Virus record (IMG/VR): IMGVR_UViG_3300009032_000012
Location: 1 to 28,061 of that record
DNA from: a virus
Length of the DNA: 28,061 nucleotides
Strand: one strand, 5' to 3'
The translations under genes were made by a program, and so were the position numbers. Below, in pieces: positions 6,413 through 27,938 of this stretch. Numbering within the stretch: the first letter of the stretch is position 1; every line of letters starts with the position of its first letter. Under the pieces are notes generated by a model. The model had not been told where the DNA came from and searched no databases. It saw only the letters and a list, made by a program, of their open reading frames with translations.

Positions 6413-7155
6413 GATAACTCCTCCACATCGATAGAACAATTTGAACGTCTGAAACTCTCATGTACGATTGAAAATGCTTTGAAAAATCCATATATTATTG
6501 TTTCTTCAGCCGTTGCATCTCCGATATATACCATCGCTACAGCCCTATGGTCTGCAAGAAGCCTTTGGACGTAAGGCACCCAGGTTTTAGGCATGGTGAG
6601 TGAAAAAGATGCAATTTTAGCGTAACGCCGCTCAGTTATTGTCATCCGGCCGGTAACTGCCTCAACACTTTTTGAGCTGTAATCCTGTATGCCAATTTGG
6701 GTGCCGTATAGAGTTGTACCCAGATCCCACGTTGTCCCGATTATCAACGATCCAACTGTAATGGCTGCGGCGGTAACAACCACGGTGATTGATGCAGATG
6801 GATATGCTGGCAGATCTGTTAAAACAATATTTTCCTTTTTACGAAGTGGAGAGAAACACCATGTGTAAAAATCGACAACATCTGATAGATCCATAAGGCT
6901 TGCGGAGTAGTTGTAAACTACCCCAGCAGTTGGGTCTGTCATCGTGACCGTAACTGCGTCAGCCACCATCGCCATTAGCGCTAAAGAATTGCATAGTTCG
7001 GCAGGAGTGAGCACAACAGTCATGCTGGCTGCGCATGTAGTCCCAGTACCTGTTTTCCCGTCGAACATGTAATCCTTGTTCACTGCCGCCGCCGTGATAG
7101 ACGTAACTTTGGGAGATGCTGCCAAACCGATTAAAATTGGTTTTATTGCTTTCAT
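6409..7155 (-). CDS. Distal tail / tail-tip protein, 248 aa
   Basis: ATG at 7155 overlaps the tape measure stop (ATGA) with GGAGAGGA upstream. Its place right after the tape measure and before the fibres is where siphoviruses encode distal tail or hub proteins. The sequence is Thr/Val/Ala-rich and all-beta. The C-terminal part (about 150-248) contains WDLGTTLYGTQIGIQDYSSK and VPYVQRLLADHRAVAMVYIG, ending in a strand-rich SIDVEELS, a layout seen in uncharacterised tail proteins from phages with this gene order. I do not see a lysozyme or peptidase motif. The exact role is inferred. Confidence 0.65.
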   Translation of the reverse strand: MKAIKPILIGLAASPKVTSITAAAVNKDYMFDGKTGTGTTCAASMTVVLTPAELCNSLALMAMVADAVTVTMTDPTAGVVYNYSASLMDLSDVVDFYTWCFSPLRKKENIVLTDLPAYPSASITVVVTAAAITVGSLIIGTTWDLGTTLYGTQIGIQDYSSKSVEAVTGRMTITERRYAKIASFSLTMPKTWVPYVQRLLADHRAVAMVYIGDATAEETIIYGFFKAFSIVHESFRRSNCSIDVEELS

Positions 7156-9227
7156 GCAGTCCTCTCCGCTGGCATTCCGTCATAATCGAATTTGCGAAGC
7201 GCTAACGCCGTATCCTGTGTGTTTTTTGCAATATAAAAAAGTTCTTGCCGCAATGCCCGTATTTCTGTTGCCACCTCAGAAGATCCGCCAAATTCACCTG
7301 AACGAATTTTAGCGGAGAGAATTTTCATGGTGTCCAGATCTATCACACCCTCGCCAAGCCGAAGAGATCCGATACCATCATCGCCACGCGGCACAAGAAG
7401 CCGGGTAACAACTCCGCCCCCTGCATGCCCTGCTGTCTCAAACTCGGTCCCGAACCCAGAATAGTTGACTGCATTACCAGAATCGTTACCTGAATCCCTT
7501 GGTGTATTTTCCCTGTTAATGTCGTTGCCGAACTGATCTAGCATATTTCCAACCGATCCAACAGCCATCTGAATGGCCGAAACGCTCCCGACTACCTCTC
7601 TGGCGGCATCTATAAAAGCACCTCCAACCACACCAACAGCACTCGCCAACATATCAGATCCCATTGATGTTTCGTAAAACGCAACCGCCAAATCAGCAGC
7701 AACCGACGGGACTCCATTCATCTCGGCAACGTATGCGGCTGTTGCGTCAATCGCCTCGGCCGTCGCAGGAGCAAACCCAGCCATCTGGAAAATGAGATCG
7801 TTAAAACTGAGCCCCGTAGATTTCCAAGCACCACTTGACTCGTCGAAGACTCTAATTGTTTCTGATAATTCGCCGGTTGCGTCTCTGGCAGCGAATTGTG
7901 TTTGTGAGAAAGCCATTGCCAATTCATCCGCAAGTGACGGAACCCCCGCCATTTGTGCAACATATGCAGCGGTAGAGTCTATGGCGCTGGCTGTTTTTGG
8001 GTTAAGATCGGCCATTTGATCAGCCAGATCCATGATGTTTATTTTGGTTTTATTCCACGTTCCTGTCGAAGCGTCAAATTTTTCAACCATGTAGCCAAAA
8101 GCCGTCGTTGTGTTTCCTACTGATTGTTCTCCAACATATGCTGTTTCTTGCATTTCAGCACCTAACACCATAAGCCCCGTAGAAGTGTCGATAGAAACAG
8201 TATTGAACTGTTTTAAACTCTCGTTCATTTCTCCAAGCGCATCGGTAGTATTGTGTAACCAACCATCAGCAGGAATTTTCCCTTGTTGAGCTAAATCGGA
8301 CAACGACAGACCTGACGATTGTAGTTGTGAGTTTACGCCCGGTTGTTGAGGCTCCAAAGCAATCATGAGAGCGAATCCTGCAATTGCACCAATGACCGAT
8401 GCATTAAGAGCAGCAATTGCGGCACCTGTTGCTGCACCTGCTGCGGCACCTGCCTCGGCAGCAACTACCGGCGCAACCTCAGCCACAACTACCGGCGCAA
8501 CCTCAGCGGCAACGACGGCCCCACCTGTTGATGTAAGATAAGATCCTACACCTGCAACAGCGGCATCGTATGCAGCTGTCGCCGTGCCGCTAGCGATCAA
8601 ATCCAATGTTACAGCCCCTTGGTATGCTGAGTATGCACCAAGTCCTGTTTGTACTGTACCGACACCGTAATTGCCTTTACTAATGTTATCTATGCCTGAA
8701 TACATTCCGTATGCGCCACCAGCAACACCGATGGCACCGCCGACGGTACTAACCAACGATCCAGTGGTGGATGCGCCGCCTGCGAGCGAGCTTGCTCCTT
8801 CACCGGCTAGAAACTTCACGCCCTCGGCTGCTATTCCGGAACCCTGCGAGCTAAAATAATCCGCCTCGGTTGCCGCGGGCTTTGCTGTGCTCAACAGTCC
8901 CGAAATGCCTCCGATTATTGACCCGAAGGAAGATCCTGATGAGCTAAACATGCTCATAATCTCGCTGCTTGCCCACTCGACTATAATCTTAGCGATTAGA
9001 TTAATAAAAGCATCCAACATACTGTCGGTAAGCGACTTCCACGCGTCTCCGACGCTTTCAAATCCGCCTTTGAGTCCGGTTGCTAAAACATTGGTAAAAT
9101 TGTTCATGACATCTTGCCCGAATGACTGCCAAGCCTTCTTCATTGCTTGGAGACTTTCGTTGTGTTTATCTTGAATGATGTTTTGCTGTAAAACGTACCA
9201 ATCTTTGACCCGTGTTTGGTTGTCCAT
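7152..9227 (-). CDS. Tape measure protein, C-terminal part (separate reading frame)
   Basis: 691 codons from an ATG at 9227, overlapping the N-terminal part by 88 nt in the -1 frame. Residues ~1-95 continue the helical tape measure (WYVLQQNIIQDKHNESLQAM; FINLIAKIIVEWASSEIMSM). Then come Gly/Ala-rich hydrophobic stretches (about 100-290), two copies of a 77-residue module (starting near 384 and 461), and a classical tape-measure end at about 601-691 (HAGGGVV...LRLGEGVIDLDTM, ...EIRALRQEL...ALRKFDYDGMP). Neither part alone has the normal architecture; together they would give about 1,310 residues. The ATG has only a weak GGGA upstream, so a separate start is doubtful. Likely one tape measure split by frameshift, sequencing error or recoding. 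Confidence 0.8.
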   Translation of the reverse strand: MDNQTRVKDWYVLQQNIIQDKHNESLQAMKKAWQSFGQDVMNNFTNVLATGLKGGFESVGDAWKSLTDSMLDAFINLIAKIIVEWASSEIMSMFSSSGSSFGSIIGGISGLLSTAKPAATEADYFSSQGSGIAAEGVKFLAGEGASSLAGGASTTGSLVSTVGGAIGVAGGAYGMYSGIDNISKGNYGVGTVQTGLGAYSAYQGAVTLDLIASGTATAAYDAAVAGVGSYLTSTGGAVVAAEVAPVVVAEVAPVVAAEAGAAAGAATGAAIAALNASVIGAIAGFALMIALEPQQPGVNSQLQSSGLSLSDLAQQGKIPADGWLHNTTDALGEMNESLKQFNTVSIDTSTGLMVLGAEMQETAYVGEQSVGNTTTAFGYMVEKFDASTGTWNKTKINIMDLADQMADLNPKTASAIDSTAAYVAQMAGVPSLADELAMAFSQTQFAARDATGELSETIRVFDESSGAWKSTGLSFNDLIFQMAGFAPATAEAIDATAAYVAEMNGVPSVAADLAVAFYETSMGSDMLASAVGVVGGAFIDAAREVVGSVSAIQMAVGSVGNMLDQFGNDINRENTPRDSGNDSGNAVNYSGFGTEFETAGHAGGGVVTRLLVPRGDDGIGSLRLGEGVIDLDTMKILSAKIRSGEFGGSSEVATEIRALRQELFYIAKNTQDTALALRKFDYDGMPAERTA

Positions 9228-11080
9228 ATCGTCCCAGCTGCTGCGAGTTGGGCATTGTACGATTGTGTCAACCGTTTCATTTCGCTAGCAAGTTTGTTGT
9301 TCTCACTGTTTTCAAAAAAAGACTCAAATTCTTCTTTTATTTGTCTCTGCTTTTCGTCATTCTGCAGTGTTATGTTGATTTGTTTTTGTCCGCTTGCGAC
9401 AAGCTCATCCTCAATTTTTCTTATCCTGCCTTCTTCATCATCAAATGCTTTATCTTTCAGTACCCGTTCATAATCTGTTATTTTTTGTTGCAGCTCCATT
9501 TTTGATCCAGCTGCTTTGCGGTATTCAGCCACCTCTGCTTTGATTTTGCTTATTGTATACTCATATGTGTCGAGGGTAGCCTCGTTAATTTTATCGGAGA
9601 GATTTCCCTCAAGTTTAATCAGATCTTCTGTATGCTTTCTCGCGGCCTCTACTCGTTTTTCCCCTTCTTTCCTGCTGTCTTCGCTCGATTTTGTTTCTTT
9701 CTTTTCCTTGTCGGTATAATATGCACTTTCGGCTTTTGTTATTTTCTCTGCATTCTCAATTGCCCATAGCGCGTTTACTTCAAAAGAATCTTTTTTGTTC
9801 GTCTGCGAGACTAAAAATTGCCTGTTGCTCTCTTGCTCCATATCAGCCAAAATCATAAAGCTGTCCTTAGCTACATTCAACGCCGTTCCTTTGTTACCAA
9901 TAACCTCTATTTGCAACTTCAGTGCTTTGGTTTGATCATCAATTGCGTCTAACTCAGCTTTTTTCGCTTCTCTGGCCTCGTACGTGAATGCGAAACTTTC
10001 TGCAACGTCCTTGCGTTTTACCGCAAGATCAGCTAATTGATCCTTGATAAATGCAACACCGGTACCGAGTTCGGTTTGCCACGTCTTCATGTCCTCCCTG
10101 CTTGATGACAGCCAGTCGCCAAGAGTTTTGTCAGATGACGCGGCCACAATTGCGAGTCCCTGAACGGATCTGACTAGGCCAGAAACTCCCTCTATCGCAC
10201 CGGCGGTTAGTGTGATCATACCAGAAAAAAGGCCAAGGATTGCACCCTTGTTTGATTCGACTGTTGACGATAAATCTTTTATCGCGGATACCATTTGGCC
10301 AGTTCCGTCGGTGGATTTATCGGCCTCATGAGCAAAAGTTTGAATGACGGTTGTTAAATCTGTCCAGGACTGGTCGATGGTTTGCTTCATCTGGCCAAAT
10401 TCACTCTCTATTGTCGATTTCTGAGATAAAAGCGCAGTGGTAATCACATCTGATGTTAGCTGCCCTTGCTTTGCCATCTCTCGCAGCTGGCCTATATTTA
10501 CACCGAGCCCATCGGCTAATGCTTTGGCTAGTCTGGGAGTTTGCTCCATAACCGAGTTAAACTCTTCCCCTCGCAGGACCCCTGAAGAAAGTCCTTGCCC
10601 TAACTGCACAAGCGCGGCTGATGATGAAGCCGCTGACGCACCCGATATGATCAACGCTTGATTAATCGTCTCAGTCATTTGGGTTGTTTGCGCTTGAGTA
10701 ATCCCGAGATCCTGCGTAGCCCTTGCAATAGATGTATAGAGTTTCACCGTTTCACTTTGCGATACGTGAGTACGAAGAGAAACATCATAAAGTTGCTGTT
10801 GCACTGCGGCTAGATTTGCTGACCCTGTAGTTACCAGTGCAAGTCTTGATTCGAGCTGGGTATATTGGTCCATGACGGACAAAAGTTGCTTGCCAAAATA
10901 CACAAGCGACAAACTGCCAAAAATCACTTGGAGTGAAGAAAAGCTGGACGACAGTAAATCACTTGATGCTTTGCCTTTTTTGCCCACATCATCAAGTTCT
11001 GATGAAACGCGTTTGAGTCCTGAAACGGCACCCTCATTTTTTACATCAATTACGATGTTGATGGAACTGGTGTTACTCAT
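9140..11080 (-). CDS. Tape measure protein, N-terminal part
   Basis: 646 codons, ATG at 11080 after the GT stop (TAAATG) with GGGGG upstream. Residues ~70-250 carry the tape-measure N-terminal domain (VMDQYTQLESRLALVTTGSA; LVQLGQGLSSGVLRGEEFNS; LREMAKQGQLTSDVITTALL). It is followed by a Gly/Val-rich hydrophobic patch (about 280-310) and long coiled-coil-like helices (about 330-610). Tape measure proteins fix tail length and are delivered during DNA injection. The last ~25 residues (after about residue 620) look like out-of-frame translation: basic, low complexity, unlike the preceding helix, while the -1 frame at the same place continues tape-measure-like sequence. Confidence 0.88.
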   Translation of the reverse strand: MSNTSSINIVIDVKNEGAVSGLKRVSSELDDVGKKGKASSDLLSSSFSSLQVIFGSLSLVYFGKQLLSVMDQYTQLESRLALVTTGSANLAAVQQQLYDVSLRTHVSQSETVKLYTSIARATQDLGITQAQTTQMTETINQALIISGASAASSSAALVQLGQGLSSGVLRGEEFNSVMEQTPRLAKALADGLGVNIGQLREMAKQGQLTSDVITTALLSQKSTIESEFGQMKQTIDQSWTDLTTVIQTFAHEADKSTDGTGQMVSAIKDLSSTVESNKGAILGLFSGMITLTAGAIEGVSGLVRSVQGLAIVAASSDKTLGDWLSSSREDMKTWQTELGTGVAFIKDQLADLAVKRKDVAESFAFTYEAREAKKAELDAIDDQTKALKLQIEVIGNKGTALNVAKDSFMILADMEQESNRQFLVSQTNKKDSFEVNALWAIENAEKITKAESAYYTDKEKKETKSSEDSRKEGEKRVEAARKHTEDLIKLEGNLSDKINEATLDTYEYTISKIKAEVAEYRKAAGSKMELQQKITDYERVLKDKAFDDEEGRIRKIEDELVASGQKQINITLQNDEKQRQIKEEFESFFENSENNKLASEMKRLTQSYNAQLAAAGTIWTTKHGSKIGTFYSKTSFKINTTKVSKQ

Positions 11081-11757
11081 TTAACCCCCAATCATCGGGC
11101 AAGCCGTTTTTAATGCATCCTTAAGTCTGCCTAGGTCAATCCATTCTTCAATCGTCAAATCGTTTGCCTCAAGCGGATATCCTCCACGAACAAGAGCTGC
11201 CAGGTGCAAAAGTTTTATTGTGTACTGGCCAAGATCAGAACTGCGCTTCTTTGGGCATTGCGAGCATGCCCAAGTCAGATCGCCTATTTCAAAAAGGCAC
11301 TTATCCTCTTCGACGGGTGTGCACAGTCCCCGTCGAAGGGCATCGATGTCCTCGGTTACTTTCCCTCGGCATCCTCTCCCCCGAGAATAGATGCTGATCC
11401 ATCAAATACATGAGCCGCAAGCAGCATCACAAGATCAGACCCGTTGTCTTCAACAAATTTTTTCCATTCAGGCAGGAAGTTTGTACTACCTTCTGAGCTG
11501 GAAATAGGCAGATATTTGTCTCCTTCTAACCGCTCAAAATCTCCATCCTTTATTCCTGATAATATTTGAAGACCGAAAGTTATCCTGGATGTAGCTTGGT
11601 TAAACTCAACTTTATTGCCTTTGCGCTGTACGGATAGATTAGCGTAAGCCTGCCGCTCTTTCGTTGTCGGCATCCGGTAAAATAGAGTGATGTCCGAATC
11701 GCTTAAATTATCGTGTATTCGTAATTCGTTGTTTTGTTTTGCTTCTCTTCGAGCCAT
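11081..11757 (-). CDS. Tail assembly chaperone GT fusion made by -1 frameshift
   Basis: The stop of the 133-aa chaperone (TAA, 11358-11356) is preceded by GGGAAAG in the correct register (G GGA AAG). A -1 slip there reads on as GTA ACC GAG... and stays open for 92 more codons to a TAA at 11083-11081, just before the tape measure ATG. Coordinates are complement(join(11359..11757, 11081..11359)); the fusion is 225 aa. The T part has four cysteines (GLC, DKC, then ACSQC) and a helical end (LGQYTIKLLHLAALVRGGYP; IEEWIDLGRL). In lambda, gpG and gpGT act as chaperones for the tape measure and tail tube; gpGT is a minor product of a slip at the same heptamer. The gene order tube, G, T, tape measure is the classical one. 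Confidence 0.85.
11308..11338 (-). promoter_or_regulatory. Stem-loop downstream of the frameshift site
   Basis: A perfect 10-bp inverted repeat (arms 11308-11317 and 11329-11338, GC-rich CTTCGACGGG with its complement) around an 11-nt loop. In the mRNA it begins 20 nt after the slippery heptamer. It lies inside the T coding frame, so it is not a terminator (no U-run). It may stimulate frameshifting; the 20-nt spacing is longer than the usual 5-9 nt, so this role is inferred. Confidence 0.6.
11356..11757 (-). CDS. Tail assembly chaperone, G-like (unshifted product), 133 aa
   Basis: ATG at 11757 with AGAGGAA upstream. It lies between the tail tube and tape measure genes, the standard place for the G chaperone. 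The N-terminus is acidic/basic (RREAKQNNELRIHDNLSDSD), followed by ITLFYRMPTTKERQAYANLS and a helical second half (LPEWKKFVEDNGSDLVMLLA). It resembles siphovirus tail assembly chaperones in length and context. It would bind the tape measure during tail assembly and be absent from the mature virion. It ends in GGEDAEGK at the slippery site, so most ribosomes should make this form and a minority the GT fusion. Confidence 0.8.
   Translation of the reverse strand: MARREAKQNNELRIHDNLSDSDITLFYRMPTTKERQAYANLSVQRKGNKVEFNQATSRITFGLQILSGIKDGDFERLEGDKYLPISSSEGSTNFLPEWKKFVEDNGSDLVMLLAAHVFDGSASILGGEDAEGK
11359..11365 (-). promoter_or_regulatory. Programmed -1 frameshift site (slippery GGGAAAG)
   Basis: The heptamer fits X XXY YYZ as G GGA AAG in the zero frame and stands immediately before the TAA stop. 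It is the same heptamer used by lambda for its G-T frameshift. The stop codon right after it and the stem at 11308-11338 would both make ribosomes pause. The -1 frame downstream is open up to the tape measure start. Confidence 0.85.
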
Positions 11758-11768
11758 ATAGTTTCCTC

Positions 11769-13046
11769 TTATTGTGAGTATCCGGTTTGCAGGTTTTTTA
11801 CTTTGACAATTACTGAGCCGTAGGTTGCATCTTCAAGCACTTGGATGTTCCCGGCTTCGCCCATTCTTTTGCCATCAACTTTCATGTCAGCGGCTAGAAT
11901 TGCTAATTTAGGAAAAACAATCTCGACTTGATATTTATTCGACCCATCGTAAAGTGCGCCCTCAGCCAAGATCCTTAGCGCGAACTGGCTGTTGTCGATC
12001 ACATGCCGCTGTAATATCATTTCCTTCATTTTCCGATCCAGGCTCAACGACTGTTCTCGGCCATCACGGTAAGATGATGATGCGAACGCCCCGCCAGCAC
12101 CTGGCAGAAATTCTATAGCCAGTTTGTTCGAGAATTTCCATTCAATCCCCCCAATCTCAGAGTTTAAAACACGGCCCCCTGTGATTGCAGTACCATTCCA
12201 GGTTCCGCCCATATTGATCTGCAATTCTGAGACCCTGAGCGGTGTTTCCTGAACTTTTGCCGGGAAAGTGAATGCAGCAGCCTCAACCGGAGTATAAAGT
12301 ATTTTGTAGTTGACCGATGTAGCCGACGCTGCAGGGGCTGTCATTGTTATAGCGGCAGGCACGGCGGCAGAAACAGCAGAGTAAACCACCTCAGTCCAAA
12401 CCCCAGCGGTGAGTTCAACTTTTATCCGCTGAACATTATCTAGCCTGTCCTGTGCCGTTGCGCCCTGTACCCCATTTGATGCGAGGGTAAGAGACACAAG
12501 ATTGCCGGCAAGTGATCTAGTTTCCTCGACTACGTTGTCAACGAATTTCCCGGTGCCTTTTATGTCTGCTGACAGTCCAACCCAGTCATCTTTCTTGAAA
12601 CTGGCCGTAAAACCATCGACGAACATAGACATGAATCGGCGTTTAAGAATAGTCTTGCCGTATCGCTGCATTGCAGAAAAACTCGGCAAAGATCGCTGAA
12701 GATCAACATCTCCTTGCAATGGTGTTATTGTGTGTAGGTATCCAGTTCCCGCAGCGGTGGGTGTCGATACTCCCAAAGCGTATGACATAATAAAAGCAAA
12801 ATGCTGTGGCTGTGCTTTCGGGAACTTAAAATTCCCGCCAGAAGTTGCCCCGTTATCATATATGAAATCAGGCTCTTCCATGCCTGTTGCTTCGTTTGAA
12901 TTGTTTTCCCTGCGATAACTCAGTGTGAGCAGGTCGTCAACAGATACCGCCAAAGACAATCCCATCGTTTGCTCTGTATTGAGCGCTGTTTCCTTTAGCG
13001 CTGCCGATACTGCGCACAGGTTATGATTTGCACGTGTACTAAGCAT
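11769..13046 (-). CDS. Major tail (tube) protein, 425 aa
   Basis: ATG at 13046 with AGGAGGT five bases upstream, overlapping the previous gene by 8 nt. It stands directly before the G/GT chaperones, where siphoviruses encode the tube. The N-terminal part (GLSLAVSVDDLLTLSYRREN; FKFPKAQPQHFAFIMSYALG) and the beta-rich middle fit tail-tube proteins. About residues 185-290 look like an inserted Ig-like or decorated domain (VKVELTAGVWTEVVYSAVSA-type strands, Ala/Pro-rich). It is long for a tube protein (often 200-250 aa), consistent with an extra domain. I do not see a tail sheath signature, and no separate tube gene follows it. Confidence 0.65.
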   Translation of the reverse strand: MLSTRANHNLCAVSAALKETALNTEQTMGLSLAVSVDDLLTLSYRRENNSNEATGMEEPDFIYDNGATSGGNFKFPKAQPQHFAFIMSYALGVSTPTAAGTGYLHTITPLQGDVDLQRSLPSFSAMQRYGKTILKRRFMSMFVDGFTASFKKDDWVGLSADIKGTGKFVDNVVEETRSLAGNLVSLTLASNGVQGATAQDRLDNVQRIKVELTAGVWTEVVYSAVSAAVPAAITMTAPAASATSVNYKILYTPVEAAAFTFPAKVQETPLRVSELQINMGGTWNGTAITGGRVLNSEIGGIEWKFSNKLAIEFLPGAGGAFASSSYRDGREQSLSLDRKMKEMILQRHVIDNSQFALRILAEGALYDGSNKYQVEIVFPKLAILAADMKVDGKRMGEAGNIQVLEDATYGSVIVKVKNLQTGYSQ

Positions 13047-21361: not shown

Positions 21362-21492
21362 TAAAATTGATCTTTAAAGGGTATTTTCTTTGTACTTTTC
21401 TTTCTGTCTTTTACTCGCTTAAGCGCTTTTGATCCTCCGGCAGCTTTTACGTCGGCGTTGTGTTTCCCCCATATGTTAGAACCGCTTGACAT
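21361..21492 (-). CDS. Small basic protein, 43 aa
   Basis: ATG at 21492 with a full AAGGAGG six bases upstream, one of the best ribosome sites in the window. The gene overlaps the PLD-like gene end by 17 nt and ends in TAATG with the terminase small subunit start. The product starts MSSGSNIWGKHNADVKAAGG and has a Lys/Arg-rich second half (KALKRVKDRKKSTKK). It is predicted to bind nucleic acid or to be a small packaging accessory. No family recognised. Without it there would be a 114-nt gap before the terminase gene. Confidence 0.75.
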   Translation of the reverse strand: MSSGSNIWGKHNADVKAAGGSKALKRVKDRKKSTKKIPFKDQF

Positions 21493-22177
21493 TTGCAACC
21501 TCCTTTGTGTTTTTCAACAGGATTGTTTGCCACAACTCAGTGCGCCTGAGTGATTTATTTATTGTGGCGTACCTTTTTATGATAGCCTGATGTACGTCGT
21601 GGTTAAAATCAAACAGGCTATCGTTATTTTCGATCATGATTTGTTCGATATTCGAAGAAGTTCTTAAATTTGCTGAGCCATGTATTACAATTTTATTTCC
21701 TCCTGTTGTTTGAATGAGACAGATCTTTGTGTGCACGCTTGCGACTGCGAGTTGAAATTTATTATCAATATCAAGTTTCTCGTAGATATACTTTACCAGA
21801 TTTCTTCTTTCATGTGAATAGAAAAAATCCGACACTATAAGGTTCAGTTTTTCGACGTTTCCTGTTTCGAGCAGGCCGGCCAGACTATCCACGTTATCCT
21901 GCGACATTGACAGTGTTGAGATTGTCATCTCATCGACATGCCAGCCGTTTTCATATATGAGCGCTTCGATAAAATCACCGAAGATAAAGTTTCCGCTCAG
22001 GAGTACAAAATATCGGGAGTCTTTGGGCGGATGACCGATAGCCAAGGCGAGTTTTTTTGCATTATCGTATTTCAGGTAAAATTCCGATATTTCTTCCTCG
22101 AATTTTGGTTCCATGTACCGGGATTTATTTATCCCCGCAACAACGTTTACAGCACCCAGTGAAAATATATTAGCCAT
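21476..22177 (-). CDS. Phospholipase D-like (HKD-type) protein, 233 aa
   Basis: The chosen start is the ATG at 22177, a TAATG overlap with a 29-aa gene and GGAGAA upstream; a TTG 63 nt earlier has no support. Near the middle of the C-terminal half is a single PLD-like motif, VHTKICLIQTTGG then KIVIHGSANLRTSSN: His, Lys and the GSAN segment are present, but the Asp usual in HxKxxxxD is not in place. Single-motif PLD proteins can act as dimeric nucleases. The N-terminal part (about 25-100) looks like an alpha/beta region. Next to terminase, a DNA-end or packaging-related nuclease role is plausible; activity is uncertain. Confidence 0.75.
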   Translation of the reverse strand: MANIFSLGAVNVVAGINKSRYMEPKFEEEISEFYLKYDNAKKLALAIGHPPKDSRYFVLLSGNFIFGDFIEALIYENGWHVDEMTISTLSMSQDNVDSLAGLLETGNVEKLNLIVSDFFYSHERRNLVKYIYEKLDIDNKFQLAVASVHTKICLIQTTGGNKIVIHGSANLRTSSNIEQIMIENNDSLFDFNHDVHQAIIKRYATINKSLRRTELWQTILLKNTKEVANVKRF

Positions 22178-22266
22178 TATTTGACTTCTCCCGTTCCGAT
22201 AAAATTTTTTTCTAATTGCTTGATCATTAAATCCGTGCAAAGATTGTGTACCTCAGCCGATGCCAT
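22177..22266 (-). CDS. Very small protein, 29 aa, linked by TAATG overlaps
   Basis: ATG at 22266 overlaps the upstream stop (TAATG); its own stop overlaps the PLD-like gene start (TAATG). The sequence MASAEVHNLCTDLMIKQLEK plus nine more residues shares AxVHNLCxD with the C-terminal part of the preceding 76-aa protein (ATATAKVHNLCPD), as does its DNA. So it may be a duplicated remnant kept to couple translation. No function can be assigned. Confidence 0.5.
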   Translation of the reverse strand: MASAEVHNLCTDLMIKQLEKNFIGTGEVK

Positions 22267-25333: not shown

Positions 25334-25600
25334 TCACCGCTTTCCGTTAGAATCCCAAACACGCTTTTTATTGATCGCATGTTTGGTTTTAATTTCCTCA
25401 GATAAACTCGTTCCAAACCTATCAAGTAAAGCTATCGCTACAATCGCAACGTCTGCAATTTCTTCTTTCAATTCATTATTGGTTTTGGCACTTAAAACTT
25501 CGCCTATTTCTTCTAGCAACTTATCAGCAATGTCTTTTACTGTTGCATTTGGAAACGTTGCTTTATGCCACTTCAATACTTCTTTTTCTATCTTTGTCAT
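25334..25600 (-). CDS. MazG-like nucleoside triphosphate pyrophosphohydrolase, 88 aa
   Basis: ATG at 25600 in an ATGA overlap with the methyltransferase gene, GGAG upstream. The all-alpha MazG pattern is visible: DIADKLLEEIGEVLSAKTNN (about 23-42, with the EExxE metal-binding acids), ELKEEIADVAIVAIALLDRF (about 43-62, second ExxxD acids) and EIKTKHAINKKRVW. The enzyme type cleaves (d)NTPs to the monophosphate and pyrophosphate. Phage versions may adjust nucleotide pools, remove unwanted dNTPs or lower the host alarmone signal. Length suits a single-domain form. Confidence 0.85.
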   Translation of the reverse strand: MTKIEKEVLKWHKATFPNATVKDIADKLLEEIGEVLSAKTNNELKEEIADVAIVAIALLDRFGTSLSEEIKTKHAINKKRVWDSNGKR

Positions 25601-26586
25601 AACTGCTCCATAAAACTCTCAAAAGTTAATTGCTCAGAAAATGCAGCAGGTTTGATATCTTTCAGGTTTTTCAACATCTGGCGATAATAAGATGTTTTGA
25701 GTTCGGCGGCAATTGCTTTTCGCCCCAACTTGACTGCGGTATATGGTTCCGATCCAACACCTCCAAACGGGCTAACTACTATATCTCCAGGATTGGATCG
25801 TAATATTATAGCCCGCTCTATAACATCAAGCTGAAGAGGATGAACATGCCGCTCGTCATCAGGTTCTTTACAATCTTTATAAGGCAGAACGTTCCCCATT
25901 CTTATGTCATCCCACACCGAAGAGGCGTATCGTCGCCATATCCAGTGAGAAAAACGGTTTTCGGTTTGCTTTCCTTTCCAGTTTTTGAACTTCAATATTT
26001 CTGCAGGCATTTTTTCTTCACCGGCATATTGTGTCAATCCGTGTGAGTGTGTTACTGGTATACGGTTCTCACCTTTTTTCCGAAACATTAACAAGTAATC
26101 AGCAGACGCAACCCCACCATAAACACCATCATCGACAATAGTTTTGTGGGAAAGGTTCTTAGTCATTGTACGGTTGCGAACCCATAGTGGCTCTTTCCAG
26201 ATAGTGTGTCTGGCAATGAATTTAAAACCGATACTTTCATGTAGTCGTATAATGTCACCGGGAAAGTCTATAAGGTGATCGTCTTTCCCGCTGTTGCTCG
26301 ATGGTATATCTGTGCAGTGTACCGCAGTAATACGTCCAGGCATGGTTATCCGTTCTATCTCTTTAACGCAATATCCATAGTGTTCAAAAAACTCGCTATA
26401 GTCGTTATTTGACATATCTCTTTCGTCTGAGCTGTAAACATACAAGCAGCTTCCTGACTTACTGGCAAAAGGTGGCGAATATATACTCATTCCGACTGTT
26501 TCTCTGTCGATACCCCGAAGAACAGAGACACAATCACCGTTATATATAGCAAAATCTTTCGTTATTTCTTGGCTAATTACTTCCAT
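25597..26586 (-). CDS. DNA methyltransferase (SPPF type), 329 aa
   Basis: ATG at 26586 with GGAGG seven bases upstream, overlapping the helicase gene by 10 nt. Motif IV is SPPF (37-40, in MSIYSPPFASKSG), the form usual for N4-cytosine and some N6-adenine enzymes. The SAM-binding motif I lies near the C-terminus: GDIVVSPFGGVGSEPYTAVK (about 267-286) followed by LGRKAIAAELKTSYY. The order IV then I is the beta-type permutation. The middle (about 125-230) holds the recognition region (WIWRRYASSVWDDIR). No paired endonuclease gene is in view, so it is likely an orphan enzyme that protects phage DNA or marks it. Confidence 0.88.
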   Translation of the reverse strand: MEVISQEITKDFAIYNGDCVSVLRGIDRETVGMSIYSPPFASKSGSCLYVYSSDERDMSNNDYSEFFEHYGYCVKEIERITMPGRITAVHCTDIPSSNSGKDDHLIDFPGDIIRLHESIGFKFIARHTIWKEPLWVRNRTMTKNLSHKTIVDDGVYGGVASADYLLMFRKKGENRIPVTHSHGLTQYAGEEKMPAEILKFKNWKGKQTENRFSHWIWRRYASSVWDDIRMGNVLPYKDCKEPDDERHVHPLQLDVIERAIILRSNPGDIVVSPFGGVGSEPYTAVKLGRKAIAAELKTSYYRQMLKNLKDIKPAAFSEQLTFESFMEQL

Positions 26587-27938
26587 GTTGGAGCCTCCAT
26601 TTTAGTTTGATGACGGTCGATATTTGATATACCAATTGCGTGATTCATTTCTTGGCAAAGATTGTCAAACATTGCTGTTGCCTGTTTAGCTTTTCTTTGC
26701 ATGTTTTGAACAACTTTTCTTTCGCCCTCAGTCATTACCACATCTACCGTTACCTGTTCTTTTTGCCCAAACCTCCAAAACCTTCTAACACACTGGTAAA
26801 ACTGCTCATACGAGTGTGAAGGGTATGTCACCATGTGGCTACAGTTTTGGAGGTTTAACCCCCATGCGCCTATTTTTGGTTTTGTTATCAGGTTTTCTAT
26901 TTCCCCATCAATAAAGGCAAGAAACTTTTCCTCTTTTTTATCATCATTGTCTCTGCCACTTATCTGGACAGATCCCGGTATCATTCTTTGCAAGGTATCT
27001 CCCTCCTCGTTTAAGTGACACCATATCATTGATTGTTTGCCATTATTAACCAATGACATAACCCTCTCGCTACGTTCGTTTATTGTTCTTTTTCTTTCTT
27101 CCCTTTGCTCTCTCAAGTCTTTTGCTGGCATGGCGAACAACATACCAGGCGCCAACGTTTCTGCCTCAACAATATGTTCGTTTTCGGTCAACAGAGGTAA
27201 TACAAAATCAGTATCATCAAATCCAAGGTCAGACGGTTTTCTCATTGCTCTAGCCCAAGAACAAACCCATCGCCAAAAAGGAACCTCTGCGTGACCACGG
27301 AACCTCCACTTAGGGGCTTCTCCATACATTCGGCGCATTGCTGAATTATTGGAGTCGTTTTTGAAAAACTTGTTGAGCATATCCATAAAACCGAGATATC
27401 CAAGTGCTTCTGATGATGTACCAAGTTCTAAATAATCGTTCGGTGCTGCGGTAGCTGTGGTCAATAAACGGAAGGGAATCTTTCTCATAAATTCAGTAAC
27501 TTCTTTTCTGGTTTTTGCGTCCTGCGATTTAATTCGAGAGCTTTCGTCACAGACAATTCCTGAATAATCTTGCCAGTTGAATTTATCTAACTTCTCATAA
27601 TTTGTTACGGTTATTTTTCCGGCAACTTTCCCGTCATTTGATCTTTTTACTTCTATGTCAAACTTATTACCCTCCCTGACTGTCTGGCTCGATACTGCTA
27701 ATGGTGTGACAATCAGCACAGGTTTGTTTGTGTGTTCAACTACTTTTTGTGCCCAGTCTAACAACATCAAACTCTTTCCGAGTCCACAATCGCACAACAG
27801 AGCACCACGGCCCTGCAATAGCGCCCACTCTGTCAAGAAAGCCTGAAATCCATACATCATAGGGTTAGGGGTATATTTTTTAATACCATCCGGCGCCTTT
27901 GACTGTAATTTTGCTTTTAGAAACTCTGAATATTCCAC
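26577..27938 (-). CDS. SNF2/DEAD-like helicase, 453 aa
   Basis: GTG start at 27938 with GGAGG eight bases upstream. Superfamily 2 motifs in order: motif I LLCDCGLGKSLMLLDWA (48-63, Lys55), motif Ia VLIVTPL (74-80), motif II VCDESS (129-134), motif III TATAAPN (161-167), motif V region KIGAWGLNLQNCSHMVTYP (355-373) and motif VI FYQCVRRFWRFGQ (380-392, Arg385/386). This SNF2-like pattern without accessory domains is common in phage DNA-metabolism blocks. It may remodel or unwind DNA during replication. The short motif-II loop DESS replaces DEAH. The overlap with the methyltransferase suggests the two act together. Confidence 0.88.
   Translation of the reverse strand: MEYSEFLKAKLQSKAPDGIKKYTPNPMMYGFQAFLTEWALLQGRGALLCDCGLGKSLMLLDWAQKVVEHTNKPVLIVTPLAVSSQTVREGNKFDIEVKRSNDGKVAGKITVTNYEKLDKFNWQDYSGIVCDESSRIKSQDAKTRKEVTEFMRKIPFRLLTTATAAPNDYLELGTSSEALGYLGFMDMLNKFFKNDSNNSAMRRMYGEAPKWRFRGHAEVPFWRWVCSWARAMRKPSDLGFDDTDFVLPLLTENEHIVEAETLAPGMLFAMPAKDLREQREERKRTINERSERVMSLVNNGKQSMIWCHLNEEGDTLQRMIPGSVQISGRDNDDKKEEKFLAFIDGEIENLITKPKIGAWGLNLQNCSHMVTYPSHSYEQFYQCVRRFWRFGQKEQVTVDVVMTEGERKVVQNMQRKAKQATAMFDNLCQEMNHAIGISNIDRHQTKMEAPTWK

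Follow-up and report, generated by a model that had tools for sequence, protein, structure and literature searches.

Examination of IMG/VR virus record IMGVR_UViG_3300009032_000012, a contig of 28,061 bases analysed over its whole length (the window), revealed on the minus strand a locus that very probably encodes a tail assembly chaperone pair of the lambda G/GT type, produced by -1 ribosomal frameshifting. An initial annotation had proposed this lambda-type arrangement, and the proposal gains support from the frame relation in relatives, selection on T, the chaperone-like model of G, the gene order and the Mu-like head. The basis for the present reading is the sequence itself, the phase of a slippery heptamer, the conservation of a -1 open frame, purifying selection on that frame and the predicted chaperone-like fold of G. 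The elements of the locus are as follows.

11356..11757, minus strand: G, predicted tail assembly chaperone of 133 amino acids (aa), frame 0 (open reading frame, structural model, BFVD matches, gene order).
11359..11365, minus strand: slippery heptamer G_GGA_AAG (sequence and phase; kept in relatives).
11081..11359, minus strand: predicted T domain, -1 frame, 92 codons and TAA (open frame, conservation, substitution ratios, structural model).
11294..11353, minus strand: candidate stimulatory RNA hairpin (folding energy against shuffles and recoding).

The G open reading frame (ORF) ends with the codons GAT GCC GAG GGA AAG TAA, so that GGGAAAG (11365..11359) is read in the phase G_GGA_AAG with the stop immediately 3' of it. 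Opening at 11401, 14 codons ahead of the junction, the -1 frame continues past it for 92 codons (VTEDI...MIGG) to a TAA at 11083..11081, which abuts the ATG of the tape measure gene at 11080. The predicted GT fusion comprises 225 aa with the junction ...EDAEGK/VTEDI..., corresponding to the junction peptide ...EDAEGKVTEDIDALR... The register of the heptamer and the extent of the open frame agree with the initial annotation; the distance from the G stop to the tape measure start is 275 nt (11081..11355) rather than the 271 nt that it gave. Since the first ATG, GTG or TTG of the window's T is codon 50, and since the list of minus-strand ORFs of at least 60 aa contains no entry covering the T stretch, T would be missed by a gene caller, as had been anticipated.

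The presence of GGGAAAG alone is no evidence, because about 4.4 copies are expected in the window by chance; six were observed, and six or more occurred in 31 of 100 shuffles. The evidential weight rests on the phase, location and conservation of the heptamer and not on the motif itself. That some four copies are expected would also suit the view that the -1 open frame arose by chance in a non-coding stretch. This view is extremely improbable and is refuted by the conservation of T as a protein over 89 loci, with a ratio of nonsynonymous to synonymous substitutions (dN/dS) well below 1.

Each of the ten relatives returned by a first search with the G protein carries the same T in the -1 frame; a contig end truncates one of them. 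Searches with a T profile added further loci, four of them in metagenome-assembled genomes assigned to Desulfobulbus, Desulfobacterium, Desulfobacula and a deltaproteobacterium. T lies in the -1 frame relative to G in all 89 distinct loci of this T-profile-found set, from which L112 and L199 (one sequence, for which frame assignment failed) were excluded. Because these loci had been found by means of T, an unbiased test was made with a G-only alignment (the closer alignment A2), counting each distinct locus in which the contig includes the G stop (n=62). Of these, 61 matched the T profile in the -1 frame and none did so in frame 0 or +1 (0/62); in the sole relative without a match, the contig ends 6 codons past the G stop. 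This comparison of the T frame had been named beforehand as a test able to refute the proposal.

The same comparison bears on the possibility that G and T are a single gene split by a sequencing or assembly error. Such an error does occur in the same record, in the tape measure gene at about 9235, but an identical -1 break, nearly always at the stop, recurs in 61 of the 62 relatives, among which the bases at the site differ, and the junction is also unchanged in a near-identical contig that belongs to another record. As the break is seen across relatives, the split-gene explanation is refuted, and we give it a negligible probability.

Over 37 close pairs, dN/dS of T ranges from 0.07 to 0.37 and third-position differences dominate; judged from these comparisons, T is under purifying selection. 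Ten columns are invariant among 49 T sequences (D4, G11, C13, C21, C32, C35, G60, E72, W73 and D75), including four cysteines, which may bind a metal.

Of the 89 loci, 77 have the assigned shift site exactly at the G stop, and 60 have an in-phase canonical slippery heptamer near the junction, in the forms G_GGA_AAG/C, A_AAA_AAC/A, C_CCA_AAC and C_CCU_UUR. By class, these are AAAAAAC (23 loci), GGGAAAC (10), GGGAAAG (9), CCCAAAC (8), CCCTTTG (5), CCCTTTA (4) and AAAAAAA (1); the remaining sites are GGAC-TGA (12), CCCT-xxx-stop (10) and others (7). In five loci (L027, L037, L042, L049 and L145), G and T overlap, since the G stop lies well beyond the heptamer, 28 or 49 nt past it, inside or beyond the predicted hairpin.

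Alternatively, no fusion might be made, and T could be a gene of its own whose translation is coupled to that of G, with ribosomes re-initiating at the G stop. T does start at the very point where G stops, an ATGA overlap is present in one relative, and in the relatives with a C-TGA junction a CTG codon overlaps the stop. However, the codon straddling the stop in the window is GTA and the usual start codons are missing from the first 49 codons of T; across the family, a conventional start codon is absent from T up to codon 12 in 73 of the 89 loci. Separate initiation of T is disfavoured by this early lack of start codons. Moreover, re-initiation needs no heptamer, yet an in-phase one is kept at the junction in two thirds of the loci (60/89). 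We consider re-initiation unlikely for the family, with a probability of a few in a hundred at most in our judgement. The relative with the overlap, L022 (2986-3000), has a G that ends GTG GGA TGA, and the stop is overlapped by an ATG; re-initiation of T is therefore possible in that locus.

In the frameshifting mechanism, for which we infer the slippage itself, its rate and the binding partners, most ribosomes would translate the 133-aa G and terminate at TAA. A minority, with GGA in the P site and AAG in the A site, would slip back one base and re-pair on GGG AAA, bypass the stop and append the 92-aa T to give the 225-aa GT fusion. By analogy with the lambda proteins (reviewed in PMC5009743), G would coat the tape measure protein, and GT, the rarer product, would use its T domain to recruit tail tube subunits, after which G and GT would depart. 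The 425-aa probable tail tube protein encoded upstream is the presumed partner of T.

Structural models of both parts were predicted by AlphaFold with high confidence values (predicted local distance difference test 90.3 for G and 90.5 for T). The named fold matches of the G model in BFVD are mostly tail assembly chaperones, from Gordonia, Haloarcula and Bacillus phages, with Foldseek probabilities up to 1.0 and modest template modelling scores (0.4-0.5).

Folding of the RNA downstream of the heptamer predicts a hairpin at 11294..11353, the outer stem of which starts 5 nt past the heptamer and which has a 12-bp core from 11340. Its minimum free energy is -29.9 kcal/mol (z -3.14 against dinucleotide shuffles), and 48 nt of it reach z -3.0 against synonymous recoding. 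Relatives of the GGGAAA clade have a GAGACC/GGUCUC-type stem soon after the heptamer, which in many of them exceeds synonymous recoding in strength; pair counts give this stem modest support (74% paired against 31-51% in slid controls, with the covariation matched in 17 of 500 shuffles). The window does not share the register of that clade's hairpin. Downstream hairpins are plausible frameshift stimulators. A Shine-Dalgarno stimulator upstream was considered and rejected: anti-Shine-Dalgarno pairing is -7.1 kcal/mol compared with -3.7 kcal/mol in the rest of G, yet synonymous recodings do equally well (41 of 89 lower), and such a stimulator is not claimed because the pairing is no better than theirs. 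At codon -4, GAG is preferred over GAA, 39 to 15.

Several observations weigh against the proposed G/GT reading. The window hairpin is not conserved as such in the relatives, for which reason we can only infer its stimulatory role, and the strength of the Shine-Dalgarno-like stretch upstream does not exceed what the encoded amino acids impose. The Foldseek E-values for G are weak (best 0.0035, named chaperone matches 0.012 and up), and a fold search of the PDB with the G model gave no match. Neither G nor T, singly or across family members, has a significant match in Pfam, PHROG or NCBIfam.

For T, there was no BFVD fold match and no PDB match by sequence, and no homologue of G or T was found among 50,697 phage records. 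As far as these sequence searches go, the G/T pair belongs to a new and widespread family, absent from Pfam, PHROGs and NCBIfam, of the well-known G/GT chaperone type.

The GGAC-TGA class is the most interesting lead of the analysis. G ends in this manner in L176, L244 and L282 as well as in 12 of the 89 loci, with NNG GAC TGA standing in the place of the heptamer. The loci with such a site, in each case at the G stop, are the following.

GGAC-TGA at the G stop: L028, L033, L043, L055, L066, L082, L097, L105, L115, L117, L125, L133, L176, L244, L282.

The 12 rows never cluster on the tree, where they require 12 changes, at least five of them forced by well-supported branches. GGACTGA terminates 14 of 124 distinct G ORFs compared with 2 of 613 other long ORFs of the same loci (Fisher p 7e-10, uncorrected for relatedness). 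In L117, the -1 frame opens merely 10 nt before the G stop, and the shift must consequently fall at or just before CAG GAC TGA. GGACUGA may thus be a natural -1 recoding site that evolved recurrently and repeatedly replaced the heptamer at the same place, a proposal which we put forward tentatively and hold somewhat short of even odds. The shift could proceed by a 'shifty stop', in which the P-site tRNA-Asp would re-pair from GAC to GGA with the weak stop UGA in the A site; slippage of this type is a known concept (PMC5009743). Two features of the site do not vary, the G that precedes GAC and the UGA. Such P-site slippage is consistent with both of them; re-initiation, for which the overlapping CUG would serve as the start, accounts for the UGA but not for the G. 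No relevant report of GGACUGA acting as a frameshift site came up in a search of the literature.

A further, relaxed class has C_CCU followed by a WYN codon (UCC, ACC, AUU etc.) before the G stop. These loci are mostly near relatives with C_CCU_UUR or C_CCA_AAC, and their -1 frame reads CCC and then UUC, UAC or UAU.

C_CCU-WYN at the G stop: L045, L060, L063, L095, L114, L123, L127, L128, L130, L141, L201, L214.

The genes flanking G and T are consistent with a tail assembly locus, with a tail tube candidate upstream and a TMP_3 tape measure downstream.

11769..13046, minus strand: probable tail tube (major tail) protein of 425 aa (weak phrog_290 match, E 4e-4; gene order).
9140..11080, minus strand: tape measure protein, N-terminal part (Pfam TMP_3, E 6.7e-62).
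7152..9227, minus strand: tape measure protein, C-terminal part (separated by a one-base deletion in the record).

The tape measure gene is broken into two ORFs (646 and 691 aa, overlapping at 9140..9227 on the minus strand) by a G missing from a run of G at about 9235. Since the near-identical contig L002 has one extra G at about this position and an unbroken tape measure frame of at least 1240 codons, the split most likely reflects an error in sequencing or assembly, not a second programmed frameshift.

A Mu-like head had also been proposed for this phage, and Mu-type head genes were indeed matched in Pfam: Portal_Mu (6.4e-98), Mu-like_gpT (major head, 9.2e-90), Mu-like_Pro (protease, 8.8e-54), Phage_Mu_Gp36 (3.8e-23) and Phage_Mu_F (2.7e-12), together with a virion morphogenesis protein. 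No match to tail sheath PF04984, expected of a contractile tail of Mu type, was found in the record, which is possibly incomplete. Elsewhere on the minus strand, a SNF2/helicase-like protein is followed by an N6_N4 DNA methylase (25597..27938), and a PLD-like domain protein (21476..22240, weak match) adjoins the terminase genes.

In lambda, as is generally known and has been reviewed (PMC5009743), the G/GT chaperones are made by a -1 shift at G_GGA_AAG. The present locus resembles lambda gpG/gpGT in the heptamer, in the direction of the shift and in its position between tail tube and tape measure, but differs in having no sequence family match, a T with four invariant cysteines, a predicted downstream hairpin and Mu-type head genes. 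The combination of a Mu-like head and a flexible tail is not new, since it is known from the D3112-type Pseudomonas phages, for which a -1 frameshift was predicted at T_TTT_TTC (PMC4378225), and from MuM16-1 of Shewanella, a Mu-like siphovirus (PMC8541194). Besides the Mu-like head module, the D3112/PaMx73 group and this phage have in common that the tail is non-contractile and that a -1 frameshift is predicted among the genes for tail assembly; in contrast, the T_TTT_TTC site predicted for that group sits 43 codons before the stop (PMC4378225). G/T genes were also described in the haloarchaeal siphoviruses HCTV-1, -2 and -5 (cited in PMC5009743). The chaperone of HHTV-2 is among the fold matches of G, although the haloarchaeal viruses have archaeal hosts and no sequence similarity to them was found.

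The family adds tail assembly chaperones that are absent from the profile libraries used and whose T domain is overlooked by gene callers. The frame relation between G and T stays constant while the slip site varies, taking the form of six or more different heptamers and of some sites that are not canonical. The family therefore constitutes a natural series with which to test which sequences bacterial ribosomes slip on, above all the recurrent GGAC-UGA.
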